Of a stretch of 64,000 nucleotides of DNA, positions 48,594 to 57,272 are shown in pieces. This DNA is from Sphingorhabdus sp. 109 (GTDB lineage: Bacteria > Pseudomonadota > Alphaproteobacteria > Sphingomonadales > Sphingomonadaceae). The position numbers were made by a program, and so were the translations under genes. The stretch's first letter is position 1. Every line of letters begins with the position of its first letter. Below the pieces are notes generated by a model. That model had not been told where the DNA came from. It searched no databases and saw only the letters and a list, made by a program, of their open reading frames with translations. The stretch spans positions 768,001 to 832,000 of the forward strand of contig NZ_LR732707.1 of assembly GCF_902506555.1 (NCBI RefSeq), given 5' to 3'.

Positions 48594-50693
48594 ATGAGCA
48601 CGATCCACGCCCGCACCTGTCATATCTGCGAAGCCAATTGCGGCGTACTGGTCGAGGTCGAGGGGCGCGAGATTCTTTCAATCAGGGGCAATCCCGATCA
48701 TGTGCTGAGTCGCGGGCATATCTGCCCCAAGGCAACCGCTATTGCCGATTTGCAGAATGATCCCGACCGGCTGCACAAGCCGGTGAAAAAGGTCGACGGC
48801 CAGTGGCAGGAAATTGGCTGGGAGCAGGCTTTTGCCGAAATCGCCGCGAAGCTGCTCGCGCTCAAGGGAGAGGGGGCCAAGCCCGCCATGTATATGGGCA
48901 ATCCCAGCGCCCATGACTATGGCATCAGCACCCAGATCAGCACCCTGCGCCATGCGATCGGGGTAAAGCATCTCTATTCCGCCTCGACCCTGGACCAGAT
49001 CCCGCATCACGTCGTCCAATATCATATGTATGGCCATGTCAGCCTCGCAGCGGTGCCGGATATCGACCGCAGCCAGTATCTGCTGATCATCGGTGGCAAT
49101 CCGGCAGCGTCCAACGGCAGCATCTGGACCGTGCCCGATTTCAAGAAGCGCGTGAAGGAACTGCGCGCCCGCGACGGCTTGCTGGTTGTCGTCGATCCGC
49201 GCCGGACCGAAACCGCCAGGCTGGCCGATGAGCATCATTTCGTGAAGCCGGGAACCGATACGGCCTTGCTGATCGGGATATTGAAAAGTATTTTTGACGG
49301 CGGCTTGGCGGATACGTCCCGACTTGATGCCATATTGGATGACAGCTGGGGCGCGATAGATCCGGCTTTGGTCGGCTTTGATATCGAACAGCTGTCTCTC
49401 CATTGCGGGATCGCGGTGGAGGCCATGCAGGATATGGCTGCCCAGCTCGCGGCCGACCAGCCGGCGGCAATCTATGGACGGATGGGCGTTTCAGTCTGCG
49501 AATATGGCACGCTCAACCAGTGGTTGATCCAGGTGATCAATATTGCGTCCGGCAATCTCGACCGGGAAGGCGGCACAATGGTGCCGGAGCCGGCGCTCGA
49601 CACGATCAATCTGGTGGGCAGGGGGTCGGTGCGCACGGCGGACACGGTGCGTGGTGTCATGCCCTCGGTGATGAACGAACTGCCGATGGTGACCTTCGCC
49701 GACGAAATGTTGCGCGAGGATGACGAGCGGATCCGATCGCTGTTCGTGGTTACCGGTAATCCGGTGCTGTCGGCGCCGGACGGGGCGAAGCTTGACCGCG
49801 CGCTGGAGCGACTCGACCTGATGGTTTCCTTCGACATGTATGTCACCGCGACCAGCCGCCATGCCGACTATATATTGCCGCCCTGCGGACCTTTGGAAAA
49901 AGATCATTATCCGTTTTTCTTCGGACCGCTGGCGATCCGCAACTATGCCAGCTACTCGCCGGCGATTTTCGAATTGCAGGAGGGCGAAAAGACCGACTGG
50001 GAAATCATCGCGGAACTGGCGCGCGAAATTCTTGCGCAGGACGGGCAGGATGTGCCCAATATCCGTGAGCCGCGCGACGTGCTCGACACTATGTTGCAAA
50101 GCTCGCCAGCCGGCCTGACCCTGGCAGAAGTGGAGGCGGCGCCCAATGGCATCGATCTCGGTCCGATGCGGCCCTGCATGGCCGGACGGCTGCGTACCAG
50201 CGACGGCAAGATCCATTGCGCCCACCCGGATTTCCTTGCCGAATTGCAGCGCTTTGCCGCATCCCTGGGCAAGGAACAGCCCGACAGCCTCCGCTTGATC
50301 GGTCGCCGCCATGTCCGGCAGAACAACAGCTGGCTGCACAATAGCGCACGGCTGCTCAAGGGGCCGGACCGCTGCACATTGATGATCCATCCCGATGACG
50401 CCGCCTCGCGCGGATTGGCCGATGGCGTCATGGCGTCAGTTTCCAGCCGGGTGAACAATATCCAGATCCCGGTCGAGATCACCGACGGCATCATGCAGGG
50501 TGTGGTGTCGATCCCGCACGGCTTCGGCCATGGCCGCGAGGGCATCGGCCTGTCGGTGGCGGCGGCGAAGCCCGGCGTCTCGATCAATGACCTTACCGAT
50601 ACGGAGCGGTTCGATCCGCTGTCCGGCAATGCCGTTCTGAACGCGGTATCGGTGACGGTGGAAAAGGTCGAAGCGCTGGTTGCGGCGGAATGA
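48594..50693 (+). CDS. Molybdopterin oxidoreductase with [4Fe-4S] cluster
   Basis: A 699-aa product. N-terminal cluster motif CHICEANCGV then GHICPKA (C-x2-C-x3-C-x27-C), the Mo-bisMGD domains, and a C-terminal MopB domain (MIHPDDAASRGLADG). It resembles assimilatory-type or formate-dehydrogenase-like DMSO-reductase family members, but no partner subunit is adjacent. No Tat signal, so cytoplasmic. ATG 48594 has AAGGAG 7 nt upstream. Confidence 0.88.
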   Translation: MSTIHARTCHICEANCGVLVEVEGREILSIRGNPDHVLSRGHICPKATAIADLQNDPDRLHKPVKKVDGQWQEIGWEQAFAEIAAKLLALKGEGAKPAMYMGNPSAHDYGISTQISTLRHAIGVKHLYSASTLDQIPHHVVQYHMYGHVSLAAVPDIDRSQYLLIIGGNPAASNGSIWTVPDFKKRVKELRARDGLLVVVDPRRTETARLADEHHFVKPGTDTALLIGILKSIFDGGLADTSRLDAILDDSWGAIDPALVGFDIEQLSLHCGIAVEAMQDMAAQLAADQPAAIYGRMGVSVCEYGTLNQWLIQVINIASGNLDREGGTMVPEPALDTINLVGRGSVRTADTVRGVMPSVMNELPMVTFADEMLREDDERIRSLFVVTGNPVLSAPDGAKLDRALERLDLMVSFDMYVTATSRHADYILPPCGPLEKDHYPFFFGPLAIRNYASYSPAIFELQEGEKTDWEIIAELAREILAQDGQDVPNIREPRDVLDTMLQSSPAGLTLAEVEAAPNGIDLGPMRPCMAGRLRTSDGKIHCAHPDFLAELQRFAASLGKEQPDSLRLIGRRHVRQNNSWLHNSARLLKGPDRCTLMIHPDDAASRGLADGVMASVSSRVNNIQIPVEITDGIMQGVVSIPHGFGHGREGIGLSVAAAKPGVSINDLTDTERFDPLSGNAVLNAVSVTVEKVEALVAAE

Positions 50694-50734
50694 TCCGGTC
50701 ATCGGAATAATCCCGTCGTCCTGAGAAATCCCCC

Positions 50735-50810
50735 GTCATCCTGAACTTGTTTCAGGACCTCCAAAGGCTGTGCGTGATCTCGAGGGGTCCTGAAACAAGT
50801 TCAGGATGAC
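50735..50810. repeat. REP-like perfect inverted repeat
   Basis: A 25-bp arm headed GTCATCCTGAACTTG (50735-50759) is repeated exactly in inverse at 50786-50810. The CTGAACTTG/CAAGTTCAG core is a widespread sphingomonad intergenic repeat (from memory). It lies between the Mo enzyme and glyQ and may end transcription in both directions. Confidence 0.8.
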
Positions 50811-50907
50811 GAATAAGGCTGCATTCCGACCATTCCTCCCTTGACCCTCTGCCGCCCTTTCGCCAAAGCAGCGCGTAATTATTGCAGCCGCGAAGAAAGT
50901 CTTCATC

Positions 50908-51780
50908 TTGTCCGATAAGAAGCCGCTCAGCTTCCAGCAGATCATCCTCAAGCTCCATCAATATTGGGGTGACCGCGGCTGCGCGATCCTGCAACCCTAT
51001 GATATGGAAATGGGTGCCGGCACCTTTCACCCCGCGACCACCTTGCGGGCGCTTGGTCCCGATCCCTGGAACGCCGCTTTCGCGCAGCCCTGCCGCCGCC
51101 CGACCGACGGCCGCTATGGCGAAAATCCCAACCGGCTGCAGCATTATTACCAATATCAGGTGGTGCTCAAACCCTCGCCGCCGGACATCCAGCAGCTTTA
51201 CCTCGACAGTCTGGTGGCGATTGGCATCGATCCGATGCTGCACGATATCCGTTTCGTCGAGGATGACTGGGAAAGCCCGACTCTCGGCGCCTGGGGACTC
51301 GGCTGGGAAGTCTGGTGCGACGGCATGGAAGTCACCCAGTTTACCTATTTCCAGCAAATGGGCGGTTTTGACTGCAAGCCCGTGGCCGGCGAACTGACCT
51401 ACGGGCTGGAACGCCTGGCCATGTACATTCAGGGCGTCGATAGCGTCTACGATCTGGATTATAATGGTGCTGGAATGACTTATGGCGACATCTTCTTAGA
51501 AAATGAGAAGCAAATGTCGGAATGGAATTTCGAAGTCGCCAATACCGAAAGCCTGTTTGATCTGTTCAACAAGGCGGCGGCCGAATGCGAAAATTGCCTC
51601 GACCGGAGCCTGCCGATTCCGGCCTATGAGCAGGCGATCAAGGCGAGCCATGTGTTCAACTTGCTGCAGGCGCGCGGCGTGATCAGCGTCCAGGAACGAG
51701 CCAGCTATATGGGCCGGGTCCGGGATCTGGCGAAGGGCAGCTGCGAAGCCTATATGGAAAAGAACGGGTGGGCGGCGTGA
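50908..51780 (+). CDS. glyQ: Glycyl-tRNA synthetase alpha subunit
   Basis: A 290-aa product from TTG 50908. It has the class II motifs [35 protein letters not shown] (motif 1/2 region), [12 protein letters not shown], and [14 protein letters not shown] (motif 3). With GlyS it forms the bacterial alpha2beta2 GlyRS. It is separated from glyS by a palindromic repeat rather than the usual few bases. Confidence 0.96.
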
Positions 51781-51800
51781 TGGTTGTGGAAGCATTTCTT

Positions 51801-51908
51801 TCCTCCCTGTTGCGCAGCAATGGGGATGTGGCAGCCGGAACGGCTGACGGCGGGGCCCCTCCGCCACGCTTCGCGCGGTCCCCCTCCCCATGCTACGCAC
51901 AGGGAGGA
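51801..51908. repeat. Palindromic repeat between glyQ and glyS (family B)
   Basis: A GC-rich repeat of about 108 bp bounded by CCTCCCTG...AGGGAGG. It is the reverse complement of the repeat inside glyS at 52867-52978: for example GGCAGCCGGAACGGCTGACG here is the complement of the glyS copy. Its right end supplies the SD (GGAGG) for glyS. Confidence 0.85.
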
Positions 51909-51916
51909 AAAAACAG

Positions 51917-54373
51917 ATGACCGATTTTCTCCTCGAACTGCTCTCCGAAGAAATCCCCGCCCGCATGCAGGCCAAGGCGCGCGCCGATCTGGAACGGCTG
52001 TTCACCGCGCAAATGGCGGAAGCGGGCCTGACAGCGGGCGATATCACCGTCTGGTCGACGCCACGACGGCTTGCCCTCATCGCCAGCGATCTGCCCGCGC
52101 AGACCGAAGCGGTGAGCGAGGAGGCCAAGGGGCCCCCCGAAGGCGCGCCGGACCAGGCTATAGACGGCTTCTGCCGCAAGAACGGCGTAACCCGCGACCA
52201 GCTGGAAGTGCGCGACGTCAAGGGACGCCCGACCTATTTCGCGGTAATCAACAAACCGGGTCGCGATACCAGGGATGTGCTGGCGGAAGCCATTCCGGCG
52301 ATCATCAAGGCCTTCCCGTGGCCGAAATCGATGCGCTGGGGCGACGCCAGCCTGTCGACCGAAAGTCTGCGCTGGGTGCGGCCCTTGAGCGGGATCGTGG
52401 CGCTTTTGGGCGATGAGCTGGTGCCCTGCGAAATTGACGGCTTGACGTCAGGCTATGATACTGTCGGACATAGATTTCATCATGCAAAAGCTTCGTTCGT
52501 CTCGAGCGAAGTCGAGAGACCGGCGGCAGAGAACGATCCCAACATGTCTCGACTGGGCTCGACAGGAACGGCACCCGGGCGCATCACCATTGGTAACGCC
52601 GGTGACTATGCCGAAAAGCTTCGCGCCTGCCACGTTCTGGTCGACCATGAAGAACGCCAGAATATCATCCGCGAGGGTGCCGCCAAGGCAGCATCCGACG
52701 CCGGTCTGGTGCTGGTCGAGGACGAAGGCCTGGTGGTCGAAAATGCCGGTCTGACCGAATGGCCGGTGCCTTTGCTGGGCGCGTTCGATCCGGCGTTCCT
52801 GGACGTACCGGAAGAGGTGATCCAGCTGACCGCGCGGGTGAACCAGAAATATTTCGTGTGCAAATATCCTCCCAATGCGCAGCATGGGGAGGCTGACCGC
52901 GCGCAGCGTGGTGGAGGGGCCACCCCTCCGTCAGCCGTTCCGGCTGCCACCTCCCCGTCGCTTCGCGACAGGGAGGAAAAATTGGCCCCGAATTTTGTCT
53001 GCACGGCCAATATCGACGCCAGTGATGGCGGCAAGGCGATTGTCGCGGGGAATGAAAAAGTCCTCGCTGCACGGCTCTCCGACGCCAAATTCTTCTGGGA
53101 ACTTGACCAGAAGACCAGGCTGGAGGATCATGCGAAGAAATTGAGCAACATCGTATTCCACGAAAAATTGGGAACGGTTGCCGACAAGGTAGAGCGTGTG
53201 GCCAAGTTGGCCGAGTGGCTGGTTTCTTTAGAAGGGAATGGTTTTTACCAGCCCAGCCCCGGCGATACATTTCATGGTGAAGTGTCCGAGGCCGCACGTC
53301 TCTGCAAAGCCGATCTCGTCACCGAAATGGTCGGCGAGTTCCCCGAGCTGCAAGGCTTGATGGGCGGCTATTATGCAGAGAAAGAGGGAAAATCGCAGGC
53401 GATCGCCAACGCGATCCGTGACCATTACAAGCCGGTCGGGCAGGGCGACGAAGTGCCGACCGATCCGGTGACGGTGGCGGTGAGTCTGGCGGATAAGCTG
53501 GATACAGTTACCAAATTTTTTGAAATTGGCGAGCTACCGACAGGTTCAAAAGATCCGTTTGCTCTTAGGCGAGCCGTGATCGCCATTAGCCGCCTTATTT
53601 TGGAGAACGAAATTCGTTTGCCTCTATGGCCGATTCTTGCCGGACAAATCGTGCTGCGAGACGGTTCATCGGAGTACTATTCAATTGCAAAACAGAAGTT
53701 TTGGTCGAGATCCCGTAAGGAAATCGAAGATGATTATCAGTGGGATCAGCCTCATAATGCTTATCCCGAGCCTCTGGAAAGCCTTCCGGCTTTGGTCGGA
53801 CAGCTCATGGACTTTTTTGCCGACCGCCTCAAAGTCCAGCAACGCGAAGCGGGCGTCCGTCACGACCTGATCGATGCGGTGTTTGCGCTCGGCGGTGAAG
53901 ACGATCTGGTGCGCTTGCTCGCCCGGGTGAAGGCTTTGCAGGCCTTTGTGGAAACTACGGATGGTGTGAACCTGCTCGCCGGTTACAAGCGGGCTTCGAA
54001 TATTTTGAAAAAAGAGGGGGCTGGTGCTCCGCACTCGATGCGGAGCTCTGAAGGCGAAGAAGCGACCTCCGGGCAGGGCTCCGCATCAAGTGCGGAGCAC
54101 AAACCCCTTTCCTACACGCCCGAAAAAGCGGAAAAGGCCCTGATTGACGCGCTCGACGCGGCACAGCCGGACGTGACCGCCGCGATCGCGGCCGAGCAGT
54201 TTGAGCAGGCAATGACCGCGCTGGCGGCCTTGCGCGGACCGATTGACCAGTTTTTCGAGGATGTGACCGTGAACGACGAAGACAAAGCAAAGCGGGAAGC
54301 CCGGTTGGCCCTGCTCGCACGCTTTCGTAATGCCGTCCATCAAGTGGCTGATTTCTCGCAGATCGAGGGTTAG
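51917..54373 (+). CDS. glyS: Glycyl-tRNA synthetase beta subunit with in-frame repeat insertions
   Basis: An 818-aa product from ATG 51917, about 100 longer than the family norm (estimate). Standard segments include LLELLSEEIPARMQ, WSTPRRLA, FPWPKSMRW, ANIDASDGG and DKLDTVTKFF. Three low-complexity insertions break it: codons at 52484-52573 (30 aa), 52868-52981 (38 aa) and about 54010-54110. Each coincides with a palindromic DNA repeat. Without them the flanks join smoothly (GHRFHH then PGRITIGNAG). The frame stays open throughout. Confidence 0.92.
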   Translation: MTDFLLELLSEEIPARMQAKARADLERLFTAQMAEAGLTAGDITVWSTPRRLALIASDLPAQTEAVSEEAKGPPEGAPDQAIDGFCRKNGVTRDQLEVRDVKGRPTYFAVINKPGRDTRDVLAEAIPAIIKAFPWPKSMRWGDASLSTESLRWVRPLSGIVALLGDELVPCEIDGLTSGYDTVGHRFHHAKASFVSSEVERPAAENDPNMSRLGSTGTAPGRITIGNAGDYAEKLRACHVLVDHEERQNIIREGAAKAASDAGLVLVEDEGLVVENAGLTEWPVPLLGAFDPAFLDVPEEVIQLTARVNQKYFVCKYPPNAQHGEADRAQRGGGATPPSAVPAATSPSLRDREEKLAPNFVCTANIDASDGGKAIVAGNEKVLAARLSDAKFFWELDQKTRLEDHAKKLSNIVFHEKLGTVADKVERVAKLAEWLVSLEGNGFYQPSPGDTFHGEVSEAARLCKADLVTEMVGEFPELQGLMGGYYAEKEGKSQAIANAIRDHYKPVGQGDEVPTDPVTVAVSLADKLDTVTKFFEIGELPTGSKDPFALRRAVIAISRLILENEIRLPLWPILAGQIVLRDGSSEYYSIAKQKFWSRSRKEIEDDYQWDQPHNAYPEPLESLPALVGQLMDFFADRLKVQQREAGVRHDLIDAVFALGGEDDLVRLLARVKALQAFVETTDGVNLLAGYKRASNILKKEGAGAPHSMRSSEGEEATSGQGSASSAEHKPLSYTPEKAEKALIDALDAAQPDVTAAIAAEQFEQAMTALAALRGPIDQFFEDVTVNDEDKAKREARLALLARFRNAVHQVADFSQIEG
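52484..52573. repeat. Palindromic insertion 1 in glyS (family A)
   Basis: Arms of about 25 nt at 52494-52518 and 52547-52571 are imperfect inverse complements, sharing TCTCGAGCG and GTCGAGAG-type cores. Exactly 90 bp, encoding 30 residues (AKASFVSSEVERPAAEN...), sit between HRFHH and PGRITIG. Confidence 0.75.
52867..52981. repeat. Palindromic insertion 2 in glyS (family B)
   Basis: 114 bp encode PPNAQHGEADRAQRGGG... (38 residues) between the FVCKY and LAPNFVCTANI segments. The DNA matches, inverted, the repeat at 51801-51908. Confidence 0.85.
54025..54099. repeat. Palindromic insertion 3 in glyS (family C)
   Basis: 22-nt arms at 54025-54046 and 54078-54099 are inverse complements with one mismatch, sharing GCTCCGCA and TGCGGAGC. 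The encoded stretch is GAPHSMRSSEGEEATSGQGS, a low-complexity insert between NILKKEG and LSYTPEKAEK. Confidence 0.78.
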
Positions 54374-54448
54374 AAGATATTTTGCTTATAACAGTGTAAA
54401 GTTTGTAAAGTTCGACGGCGTATTTTCGGTAACCCGAACTTATCATCT

Positions 54449-54571
54449 ACCCCCTCGCTTTTCCGCGAGGGGATTCAGGGGCGGGACACAGGGCAGGTGG
54501 CGCAAGGCCGTTTTCCCAATGGGCTGACGGCCCGGCACTACCCCGACTTCTCCTCTGAAGAGGAGGGGCTA
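54449..54571. repeat. Palindromic elements between glyS and ppdK
   Basis: CCCCTCGC / GCGAGGGG (54451-54472) and CTCCTCT / AGAGGAG (54550-54565). The second palindrome holds the AGGAGGGG SD of ppdK, so translation may respond to its folding (inference). Confidence 0.5.
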
Positions 54572-54575
54572 ACAT

Positions 54576-57272
54576 ATGGAGTTGAAAGCAAGAATGACCC
54601 AGTATGTATATCGTTTCGGTGGCGGCATGGACGCGGATGGCGCGCCCGGTGATTCCACAGAGGCTCGCAACCTGCTTGGCGGCAAGGGTGCCAATCTCGC
54701 GGAAATGGCGAATATCGGCCTGCCGGTGCCTCCCGGTTTCACGATCTCGACCGAAATGTGTACGCGCTATTATTCCGAGGGCGGCCAATATCCGGACAGT
54801 GTCCGCGACGAAGTGGCGCAGGGCGTTGCCCATATCGAATCCGTAACCGGCAAGTCCTTCGGCGATGCCGCCGATCCGCTGCTGGTCTCGGTCCGTTCCG
54901 GCGCCCGCGCCTCGATGCCGGGGATGATGGACACGGTTCTCAACCTGGGTCTCAATGACGAAACCGTCGAAGGTCTGGCGAAGACCTCCGGGGACGAACG
55001 CTTCGCCTGGGACAGCTATCGCCGGTTCATCCAGATGTATTCCGACGTGGTGCTCGAGCTCGATCATGGGGCCTTTGAGGAAGCTCTGGAAATTGCCAAG
55101 GAAGACAATGGCTTCTTCACCGATACGGAGATGGAAGCGAAACATTGGCAGGCGCTGGTTGCCGAATATAAAACGCTCGTCGAGGAGCAATGGGGCAAGC
55201 CCTTCCCGCAGGACGTGAATGACCAGCTATGGGGCGCGGTCAGCGCGGTTTTCGGCAGCTGGCAGGCCGAGCGCGCCAAGGTCTACCGCCGGCTCAACGA
55301 TATCCCGTCCGAATGGGGCACGGCGGTCAATGTCCAGGCGATGGTCTTCGGCAATATGGGCGAAACCAGCGCTACCGGCGTTGCTTTCACCCGCAATCCC
55401 TCGACCGGCGACAGCGCTTATTATGGCGAATGGCTGATCAACGCGCAGGGCGAGGACGTCGTTGCCGGGATCCGCACGCCGCAATATCTCTCGAAAGCGG
55501 CGCGCGAGCAGGCGGGTGCCAAGCCGCTGTCGATGGAAGAGGCGATGCCGGAAACCTACAAGGAACTGACCGACGTCTTTGACCTGCTCGAACGCCATTA
55601 TCGCGACATGCAGGATATCGAATTTACCGTCGAACGCGGCAAATTGTGGATGTTGCAGACCCGCTCGGGCAAGCGCACCGCCAAGGCGGCGCTGAAGATC
55701 GCGGTCGATATGGCCAATGACGGACTGATCACCGAAGAAGAAGCGGTGATGCGCGTCGATCCGATGGCGCTTGACCAGCTGCTCCACCCGACGCTCGATC
55801 CGGACGCCACGCGTGATGTGTTGACCGCCGGTCTGCCGGCCTCTCCGGGCGCGGCCAGCGGGCTGATCGTGTTTGACAGCGATACTGCCGAACGGCGCAC
55901 CGAGATGGGCGATGATGTCATTCTCGTCCGGGTCGAAACCTCGCCCGAGGATATTCACGGCATGCACGCCGCCAAGGGCATCTTGACCGCGCGTGGCGGC
56001 ATGACGTCACATGCGGCTGTGGTCGCCAGAGGCATGGGCAGACCCTGTGTTTCCGGCGCCGGCACCATTTCGATCAACAATGATACGAAAGTCATGAAGG
56101 TCGGTGACCGCGAGTTGAAAGAAGGCGATATGCTGACCATCGACGGCAGCAACGGCCAGGTCATGGCCGGCCGCGTCGATACGATCCAGCCGGAACTGGT
56201 TGGCGACTTTGGCGTGCTGATGATCTGGGCCGACAAGGTCCGCCGCCTGGGCGTCCGCACCAACGCGGAAACGCCGCTCGATTGTCAGGTCGCGCGCGAC
56301 TTCGGCGCCGAGGGCATCGGCCTTTGCCGCACCGAGCATATGTTCTTCGATGCCGCGCGGATCACCTCGGTTCGCCAGATGATCCTGGCTCCCGATGAAA
56401 AGGGCCGCAGGCAGGCGCTGGCCAAGCTGCTGCCGGAACAGCGGGACGACTTCCGGCAGATTTTTGACGTCATGGTGGGCCTGCCCGTAACCATCCGCCT
56501 GCTGGACCCGCCACTGCACGAATTCCTGCCGCACAATCAGTCCGAATTCGAGGAAGTGGCCAAGGCCGCCGATGTCGGGGTCGAGACGCTGAAGCAGCGG
56601 GCTGCCGAACTGCACGAGTTCAATCCGATGCTCGGCCATCGCGGCTGTCGTCTCGGTGTCACCTATCCCGAAATCTACGAAATGCAGGCCCGCGCCATTT
56701 TCGAAGCAGCCTGTGAGGTCGCCGAAGCCAGCGGCGAAGCGCCGATTCCCGAAGTCATGATCCCGCTTGTCGCCACTGCGCGCGAACTGGAACTGATGAA
56801 GGATGCGGTCGACCGGATGGCGAAAGAAGTCTTTGCCGAAAAAGGGCGGGAAATCGAATATCTTGTCGGTACGATGATCGAGCTGCCGCGCGCCGCGCTG
56901 ATGGCCGGTGAAATTGCCGAACATGGCGAGTTTTTCAGTTTCGGTACCAATGACCTGACGCAGACGACGCTGGGCGTTTCCCGCGATGACGCCGGGCGCT
57001 TCCTGACGCAATATGTCGACAAGGGCATTTTCCCGCGCGATCCCTTTGTCAGCCTCGATATCGAGGGTGTCGGGCAGCTGATCGAAATCGCGGCCGAACG
57101 CGGCAGGGCGACGCGCTCCGGCATCAAGCTGGGCATTTGCGGCGAACATGGCGGCGACCCCGCATCGATCGCTTTCTGCGAGAAAACCGGGCTCGATTAT
57201 GTCAGCGCCTCGCCTTACCGGGTGCCGATCGCAAGGCTGGCCGCGGCGCAGGCGGCGCTGTCGCAACGGTGA
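54576..57272 (+). CDS. ppdK: Pyruvate, phosphate dikinase
   Basis: An 898-aa product. The N-terminal ATP-grasp domain opens GGKGANLAEMANIGLPVPPGF, the swivelling phosphohistidine domain has GGMTSHAAVVARGMGRPCV (His near 477), and the C-terminal PEP/pyruvate barrel has FGTNDLTQTTLG. It interconverts pyruvate, ATP and phosphate with PEP, AMP and PPi. Start ATG 54576 has AGGAGGGG 7 nt upstream; ATG 54594 (MTQYVYRFGGG) is the alternative. Confidence 0.95.
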   Translation: MELKARMTQYVYRFGGGMDADGAPGDSTEARNLLGGKGANLAEMANIGLPVPPGFTISTEMCTRYYSEGGQYPDSVRDEVAQGVAHIESVTGKSFGDAADPLLVSVRSGARASMPGMMDTVLNLGLNDETVEGLAKTSGDERFAWDSYRRFIQMYSDVVLELDHGAFEEALEIAKEDNGFFTDTEMEAKHWQALVAEYKTLVEEQWGKPFPQDVNDQLWGAVSAVFGSWQAERAKVYRRLNDIPSEWGTAVNVQAMVFGNMGETSATGVAFTRNPSTGDSAYYGEWLINAQGEDVVAGIRTPQYLSKAAREQAGAKPLSMEEAMPETYKELTDVFDLLERHYRDMQDIEFTVERGKLWMLQTRSGKRTAKAALKIAVDMANDGLITEEEAVMRVDPMALDQLLHPTLDPDATRDVLTAGLPASPGAASGLIVFDSDTAERRTEMGDDVILVRVETSPEDIHGMHAAKGILTARGGMTSHAAVVARGMGRPCVSGAGTISINNDTKVMKVGDRELKEGDMLTIDGSNGQVMAGRVDTIQPELVGDFGVLMIWADKVRRLGVRTNAETPLDCQVARDFGAEGIGLCRTEHMFFDAARITSVRQMILAPDEKGRRQALAKLLPEQRDDFRQIFDVMVGLPVTIRLLDPPLHEFLPHNQSEFEEVAKAADVGVETLKQRAAELHEFNPMLGHRGCRLGVTYPEIYEMQARAIFEAACEVAEASGEAPIPEVMIPLVATARELELMKDAVDRMAKEVFAEKGREIEYLVGTMIELPRAALMAGEIAEHGEFFSFGTNDLTQTTLGVSRDDAGRFLTQYVDKGIFPRDPFVSLDIEGVGQLIEIAAERGRATRSGIKLGICGEHGGDPASIAFCEKTGLDYVSASPYRVPIARLAAAQAALSQR

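Follow-up and report, generated by a model that had tools for sequence, protein, structure and literature searches.

The question raised by this locus is why an essential tRNA synthetase gene should carry three palindromic repeats within its reading frame. The window, a stretch of 64,000 nucleotides of Sphingorhabdus sp. 109 (G000:C2:768001-832000; genome size 3.6 Mb), contains the glyS gene, which encodes the beta subunit of glycyl-tRNA synthetase, as an open frame of 818 codons on the plus strand (51917..54373). The protein matches the Pfam families tRNA_synt_2f (PF02092, E 7.7e-176) and DALR_1 (PF05746, E 1.9e-09), that is, by Pfam it is an ordinary GlyRS beta subunit of the alpha2beta2 type, and E. 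coli GlyRS is among its best relatives of solved structure. Compared to the relatives, it has three additional segments at residues about 190-220, 317-351 and 701-731. Each coincides with one palindromic repeat of a separate family, F1 at site S1, F2 at site S2 and F3 at site S4, and they add 30, 34 and 23 codons to the short form of GlyS, taken as the 10th percentile of length among 109 genes. The preliminary description had already placed three palindromes of separate families in frame in this essential gene, with limits close to those found here.

The S1 insert (52494..52571, reading ...FVSSEVERPAAENDPNMSRLGSTGT...; the repeats are given without strand) is a decayed F1 palindrome, recognized by other copies of the family and by the short form in relatives. 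Its fold as single-stranded DNA is only slightly better than that of shuffled sequences (z -0.48), whereas an intact F1 copy from the ligA gene of the same genome has z -5.7. The S2 insert (52867..52977, 111 bp, reading ...YPPNAQHGEADRAQRGGGATPPSAVPAATSPSLRDREE...) is an F2 compound of several hairpins, recognized by its fold (z -5.0) and again by the short form in relatives. The S4 insert (54024..54100, reading ...GAPHSMRSSEGEEATSGQGSASSAEH...) is an F3 hairpin doublet with z -7.0, whose arms 54017-54050 and 54074-54107 are complementary at 88%. The inverted-repeat score, for which the palindrome threshold was set at 11, is 12 for the S1 insert and 22 for the S4 insert; the S2 insert scores 9 and misses the threshold, as it is built of several short hairpins.

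Repeats of the same kind surround the gene. The spacer between glyQ and glyS contains a second copy of F2 (51799..51912; 86% to the S2 copy by blastn, fold z -6.0). This copy terminates on the right with GGGAGGA, only a few bases upstream of the glyS start codon ATG, and thus the repeat may supply the ribosome-binding site of its host gene, a putative assignment made from the sequence. An intergenic F5 doublet was found by blastn upstream of glyQ (50734..50813, or G000:C2:818734-818813; fold z -7.0). The spacer between glyS and ppdK (54440-54572) contains more hairpins (z -2.5). A scan of positions 50600-54700 against Rfam yielded only matches below the cut-off, to animal microRNA models.

The places of the inserts are empty in relatives. 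The genomes of the genus that lack an insert have uninterrupted ordinary GlyS sequence there, and in the alignment the short form of S1, five residues long, is present in 98 of the 109 genes. A motif-based reading of the short form in the genus missed 11 genomes at S1 and three at S4, both of which are covered by the alignment. Thus the insert-free protein is indeed ordinary GlyS, as had been suggested from the flanks of at least the first two repeats.

A search of the genome for the three families had also been proposed, and all three recur. Blastn against the own genome gave 17, 21, 45, 25, 79 and 42 rows for F1 to F6, but these count both strands of a palindrome, and distinct places were used instead: 11, 14, 23, 20, 30 and 22, the glyS copies included. 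F4, F5 and F6 were first seen in glyS genes of relatives. Merged copies of the six families form 111 clusters. As placed by a simple codon-usage gene caller of our own, 79 clusters are intergenic, 19 overlap gene edges and 13 lie inside called genes. Ten genes act as hosts: glyS with three clusters, dnaE with two, and further a gene for a class I tRNA synthetase, trmD, ligA, truB, uvrA, a phage terminase gene, the gene of a PHA-granule-type protein and one of 333 codons that has no Pfam match; the last two are less certain, being short or having the repeat near the gene start. When 13 in-gene clusters were placed randomly on 3500 genes of resampled size, three never fell into one gene in 20000 simulations. 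Under random placement, therefore, three in one gene are as unusual as had been supposed, but GlyS is a habitual host, with at least two palindromic sites in 19 of 109 genes.

The F1 peptide reads SSEVER in GlyS, SSRAQSR in LigA and TrmD and VERSRD in the terminase, which are the three frames of one strand. Selection of the elements for coding compatibility was considered and rejected, as stop-free frames are no more common than in shuffled sequences (3.14 open frames per intergenic copy observed, 3.06 expected, n=50). By family, F1, F2 and F6 are above the expectation and F3, F4 and F5 are at or below it. As for the means of dispersal, the REP-associated transposase PF01797 has no match in the own genome, in a search whose control was positive in five of 14 genomes; the transposase is present in 13 of the 32 genomes of the genus.

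The pattern becomes clearer at the level of the order. We gathered 121 glyS sequences (the window, 40 stretches and 80 named loci) and analysed 109, among which the record title gives Rhodobacterales for one and no more than Proteobacteria for two. The 12 sequences left out are six in which a motif used by the script was missing (L156, L161, L176, L184, L185 and L198; the markers were later found in one frame, in L185 without the end marker), four same-genome duplicates, the partial L150 and the frame-broken L115. The inserts concentrate at four sites, two of which are turns, following GHRF (S1) and QKYF (S2), and two of which are linkers, following AEWL (S3) and NILKKE (S4). At S1 to S4, 10, 17, 37 and 62 genes, respectively, have inserts of 10 codons or more, of which eight, nine, 32 and 29 reach the palindrome threshold. 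Outside these sites and the adjoining variable region, denoted V, such inserts were seen at core position 173, at core position 334 and at the C terminus, in one gene each, and were not scored. At least one palindromic insert is present in 58 of the 109 genes, at one site in 39 genes, at two sites in 18 and at three in one. Palindromes are absent from the control regions or nearly so, with 0 of 75 in V and 0.4% of 252 segments drawn at random from the core.

The contents of a site differ in family as well as in presence. Loose blastn clustering of the inserts joined nearly all of them, and motif labels were used instead; in control segments the motifs matched in two of 173 cases. By these labels, there are two families at S1, three at S2, at least four at S3 and at least seven at S4, and the sites are occupied in eight, 17, 36 and 33 of the 109 genes, respectively. 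Inserts without a repeat motif make up 29 of 62 at S4, two of 10 at S1 and one of 37 at S3. Within the genus, S1 holds F1 in G000, G001 and G025 and F4 in G006, G014, G024 and G028; S2 holds F2 in seven genomes (a remnant in G009) and F7 in G005, G020 and G025. The S4 site contains F3, F1 with or without an F3 remnant, F6, F5 or several families in tandem, two or three of them together in G006, G009, G025, G027 and G031. No S3 insert was found among the GlyS sequences read from the genus. In G004 a run of N lies within the S2 insert of glyS (L099).

One possibility is that this recurrence reflects a preferred DNA target of the insertion machinery rather than tolerance of the protein, as unrelated families share all four sites to within a few codons. 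However, the junctions are several codons apart between species, and neither a target duplication nor a shared target motif was seen by eye. Moreover, all families would have to use one and the same target, and the structural model places the sites in turns and linkers. We regard this explanation as improbable.

On a tree of GlyS core columns, the minimum number of presence/absence changes is 6, 13, 23 and 18 for S1 to S4, and with family labels it is 8, 14, 36 and 31, numbers that are inflated by composite labels. The tree was constructed with FastTree from GlyS only and branch support was not considered, so exchange of glyS between species could underlie part of these counts. In its strong form, such exchange would mean that insertions were few, that insert-bearing glyS alleles spread by recombination and that the change counts overstate insertion. 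The dependence of the counts on one gene tree and on composite labels is consistent with that, and the adjoining V cassette demonstrates that part of glyS has been exchanged or replaced. However, one insertion cannot yield different families at one site, and each of F1 to F6 is present elsewhere in the own genome. We thus consider few insertions with much exchange unlikely.

Among the 80 named loci, the standard deviation of protein length is 4.9 for glyQ (77 complete), 7.1 for ppdK (75) and 48.4 for glyS (78), the latter with a contribution from V. In an AlphaFold2 model of GlyS made from an alignment of 33 sequences (mean pLDDT 77.2), residues 190-219, 326-352 and 704-727 have pLDDT below 50. 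The first two segments lie between beta strands and the third one between helices. Seven sets of orthologous inserts, of two to seven sequences each, were examined for changes in the paired positions. None of them contains a compensatory change; pairs are broken in four sets, and in the other three no pair varies.

Other host genes appear to have recurrent sites as well; in truB and dnaE the inserts were judged by reading the translations, without the palindrome score. In truB, a single turn before ITLxAxVSKGTYIR is enlarged by 12-44 residues, relative to the shortest sequence, in 26 of the 28 genus sequences read. The turn contains at least three repeat types, F2, F5, F7-like and others (L316-L345). 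Ten sequences have one common F7-like insert, seven of which form a set in the pair-change test, and thus there were fewer insertions than there are enlarged sequences; the prevalence of the enlarged turn also suggests that loss is rare there. In dnaE, read in 20 of the 32 genus genomes, there are three sites at residues about 128-190, 598-633 and 880, which contain F2, F3, F4 or F7 types or nothing (L309 for the own genome, L380-L399 for relatives). The translation of L394 (G004) contains a run of X within a dnaE insert.

Seven of the ten host genes of the own genome function in translation, replication or repair, compared to six in a random background of 40 genes (Fisher p 0.0014). The background consists of genes of at least 200 codons taken from stretches near the repeats, and the classification is our own: PseudoU_synth_1, MutL, RNase_PH, PrmA, ribosomal L9 and RsmI were counted by Pfam as informational, whereas genes for transcription regulators and one for a Ribonuclease_T2 were left outside this group. 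A bias toward genes of translation and DNA processing is therefore indicative only. It could mean that the inserts are kept for a function, the mRNA hairpin or the extra loop tuning folding, stability or activity of informational proteins, and the enlargement of the truB turn in 26 of 28 genus sequences, by at least three repeat types, points in the same direction. On the other hand, the GlyS sites are mostly empty, the pairs of the hairpins are not maintained by compensatory changes in any of the seven small sets, and both families and peptides at one site are wholly unlike between species. A functional role of the inserts thus seems rather unlikely.

All 109 analysed genes are open through their inserts. 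They were chosen by the longest open frame, and thus their openness is no independent test. The exception among the gathered sequences is G022, a genome in a single contig, where the S4 insert of glyS (L115) and one insert of dnaE (L396) are out of frame. This might suggest that inserts are absent from the finished protein, being skipped by ribosome bypass or removed by messenger processing. However, an open frame, present in 109 of the 121 loci although so chosen, would not be needed if the inserts were bypassed, and a break at an insert is known for one of the 121. The dnaE gene of G022, which was excluded from the comparison above because of its frame breaks, has an additional one away from any insert, so an assembly error is likely, although not proven. 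Removal of the inserts from the protein is extremely improbable.

The glyS gene contains a second variable feature, a hypervariable non-palindromic cassette of low GC content between DPFALRR and RLKVQ (window positions 53573-53824, codons 553-636). Its length varies from 29 to 136 residues in the 79 of 109 genes that have both anchor motifs, the other 30 being without them. In its inner part V, which follows LPLWP, identity is below 40% in 268 of the 307 gene pairs whose cores are at least 85% identical (median 0.26), and even relatives at 94% core identity have unrelated V sequences. Grouping by blastp divides the 99 V sequences of at least 20 residues into 75 clusters, and in 15 of 99 cases the closest relative by core has the same cluster; similarly, the anchored cassettes form 43 types in 79 genes, with the type common to the nearest relative in 16. 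At the DNA level, V is also unrelated in six pairs examined, while the right flank is 83-95% identical. The 60 nucleotides to the left diverge too (38-53%), and for this reason the left border was set at DPFALRR, in columns conserved in the genus. The GC content of the cassette is 0.50 versus 0.62 in the rest of the gene, and it is lower in 78 of 81 genes.

Similar types of the cassette recur in other genera, and of nine such pairs, one has a higher similarity in the cassette than in the flanks. For the type found in the window, one relative was detected in 395 other genomes of the order and no further copy in its own genome. Ten types compared with Pfam gave nothing over the cut-off (best E 0.029), one type had no match in PDB (best E 0.23), and single types searched against phages and against plasmids had no match. 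According to two papers on E. coli (PMC8464048, PMC9908026), the corresponding region follows a loop and a helix that contact the acceptor stem of tRNA. An essential tRNA synthetase with a segment wholly unlike between sister species is a separate puzzle, and this cassette is perhaps more surprising than the palindromes. Both features could be brought together if the surface of GlyS were under pressure to change, for instance from a binder made by a phage or a competitor, with palindromes serving as raw material rather than being relics and V being swapped. We find such a common cause very doubtful.

What probably explains the glyS inserts is that copies insert rarely, survive only where a loop tolerates them, decay, and are followed by new copies in loops that have already become neutral. 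This reading draws on the families themselves, their copies elsewhere in the genome, the empty sites, the open frames, the recurrence of the sites, the turnover of families and the low-confidence loops of the model, all of which are shown by the analysis. The three inserts would be copies of three families of the REP type that are scattered mostly between genes and that now and then enter genes, the insertion itself presumably being untargeted. As the elements are GC-rich and free of stops in about half of the frames, some landings would lengthen the protein, by some 20-35 residues each, rather than break it. Survival would be limited to tolerant turns and linkers, in GlyS the sites S1, S2, S4 and S3, the last one unused in the genus. 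The insert would then be translated, as its open frame suggests, into a disordered loop that is probably neutral, and would decay. Once lengthened, a loop would take up further copies with even less risk, and thus later copies of other families would enter the same place. The bias of host genes counts against this explanation, since untargeted insertion into any tolerant loop predicts none. So do the apparent rarity of loss in truB, the absence of PF01797 from the own genome, the out-of-frame inserts of G022 and the palindrome score of the S2 insert, which is below the threshold.

REP repeats are usually regarded as extragenic. REPIN and BIME elements, which are associated with RAYT transposases, are hairpin doublets. 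They resemble the present repeats in the doublets and in the mosaic combinations seen at S4, but the genome considered here has no PF01797 gene. The repeats have the general features of REPs: they are short, numerous and predominantly intergenic, and by eye F1, F3 and F5 are inverted doublets with hairpin arms, F2 being a larger compound. Two species that we take to belong to Erythrobacter and Sphingopyxis, E. 'lithoralis' and S. alaskensis, provide the closest parallel. According to the part of the report by Di Nocera et al. (2013; PMC3733652) that was available, tRNA synthetases and truB of both carry REPs, and REPs within open frames, many of them in replication and repair genes, code for 20-30 residues, with uvrA, dnaE and DNA ligase among the named hosts. 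The GTAG- and CGTC-tagged REPs of that study are likewise mostly intergenic hairpins, often doublets and sometimes intragenic, and the CGTC ones are described as having no dedicated transposase. As judged by eye, F5 begins with CGTC followed by a stem of about 8 bp starting with AT, while F1, F2 and F3 have no clear fit to that definition by tag, stem and loop size. The same text proposes loops and linkers as neutral sites, speculates about a functional effect in repair proteins, and the only case it gives of different REPs at nearly the same position is recB of two Xanthomonas species. It names neither glyS nor three families in one gene, although its supplementary gene list may hold glyS.

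Two further systems invite comparison. The preliminary description had likened the inserts to Rickettsia palindromic elements, which the accessible part of a review (PMC10969869) describes as in-frame palindromes of about 150 bp in alphaproteobacterial genes, each encoding a conserved peptide and said to be compatible with protein structure. The likeness, drawn by description and not by sequence, extends to in-frame insertion in protein genes. It does not extend to one conserved peptide per element, as F1 is read in three frames. Thus the inserts behave as intragenic hairpin repeats of the REP type, and the name of Rickettsia element would denote an analogy rather than membership. The coding palindromes of Nematomorpha mitochondria, in the portion of the paper accessible (PMC6649704), are also inverted repeats in frame; however, they are perfect repeats whose arms form conserved residues, whereas here the residues are extra and the arms have mismatches.

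Judged against the open-licence literature, intragenic REPs of this kind are already known in the order, and what is new is the scale on which sites recur and families turn over. The same loops, repeatedly struck by several families across the order, amount to a natural map of where an essential enzyme tolerates insertions. The many events also allow one to ask why such repeats occupy genes of translation and DNA repair, a question that the available text of PMC3733652 leaves open.
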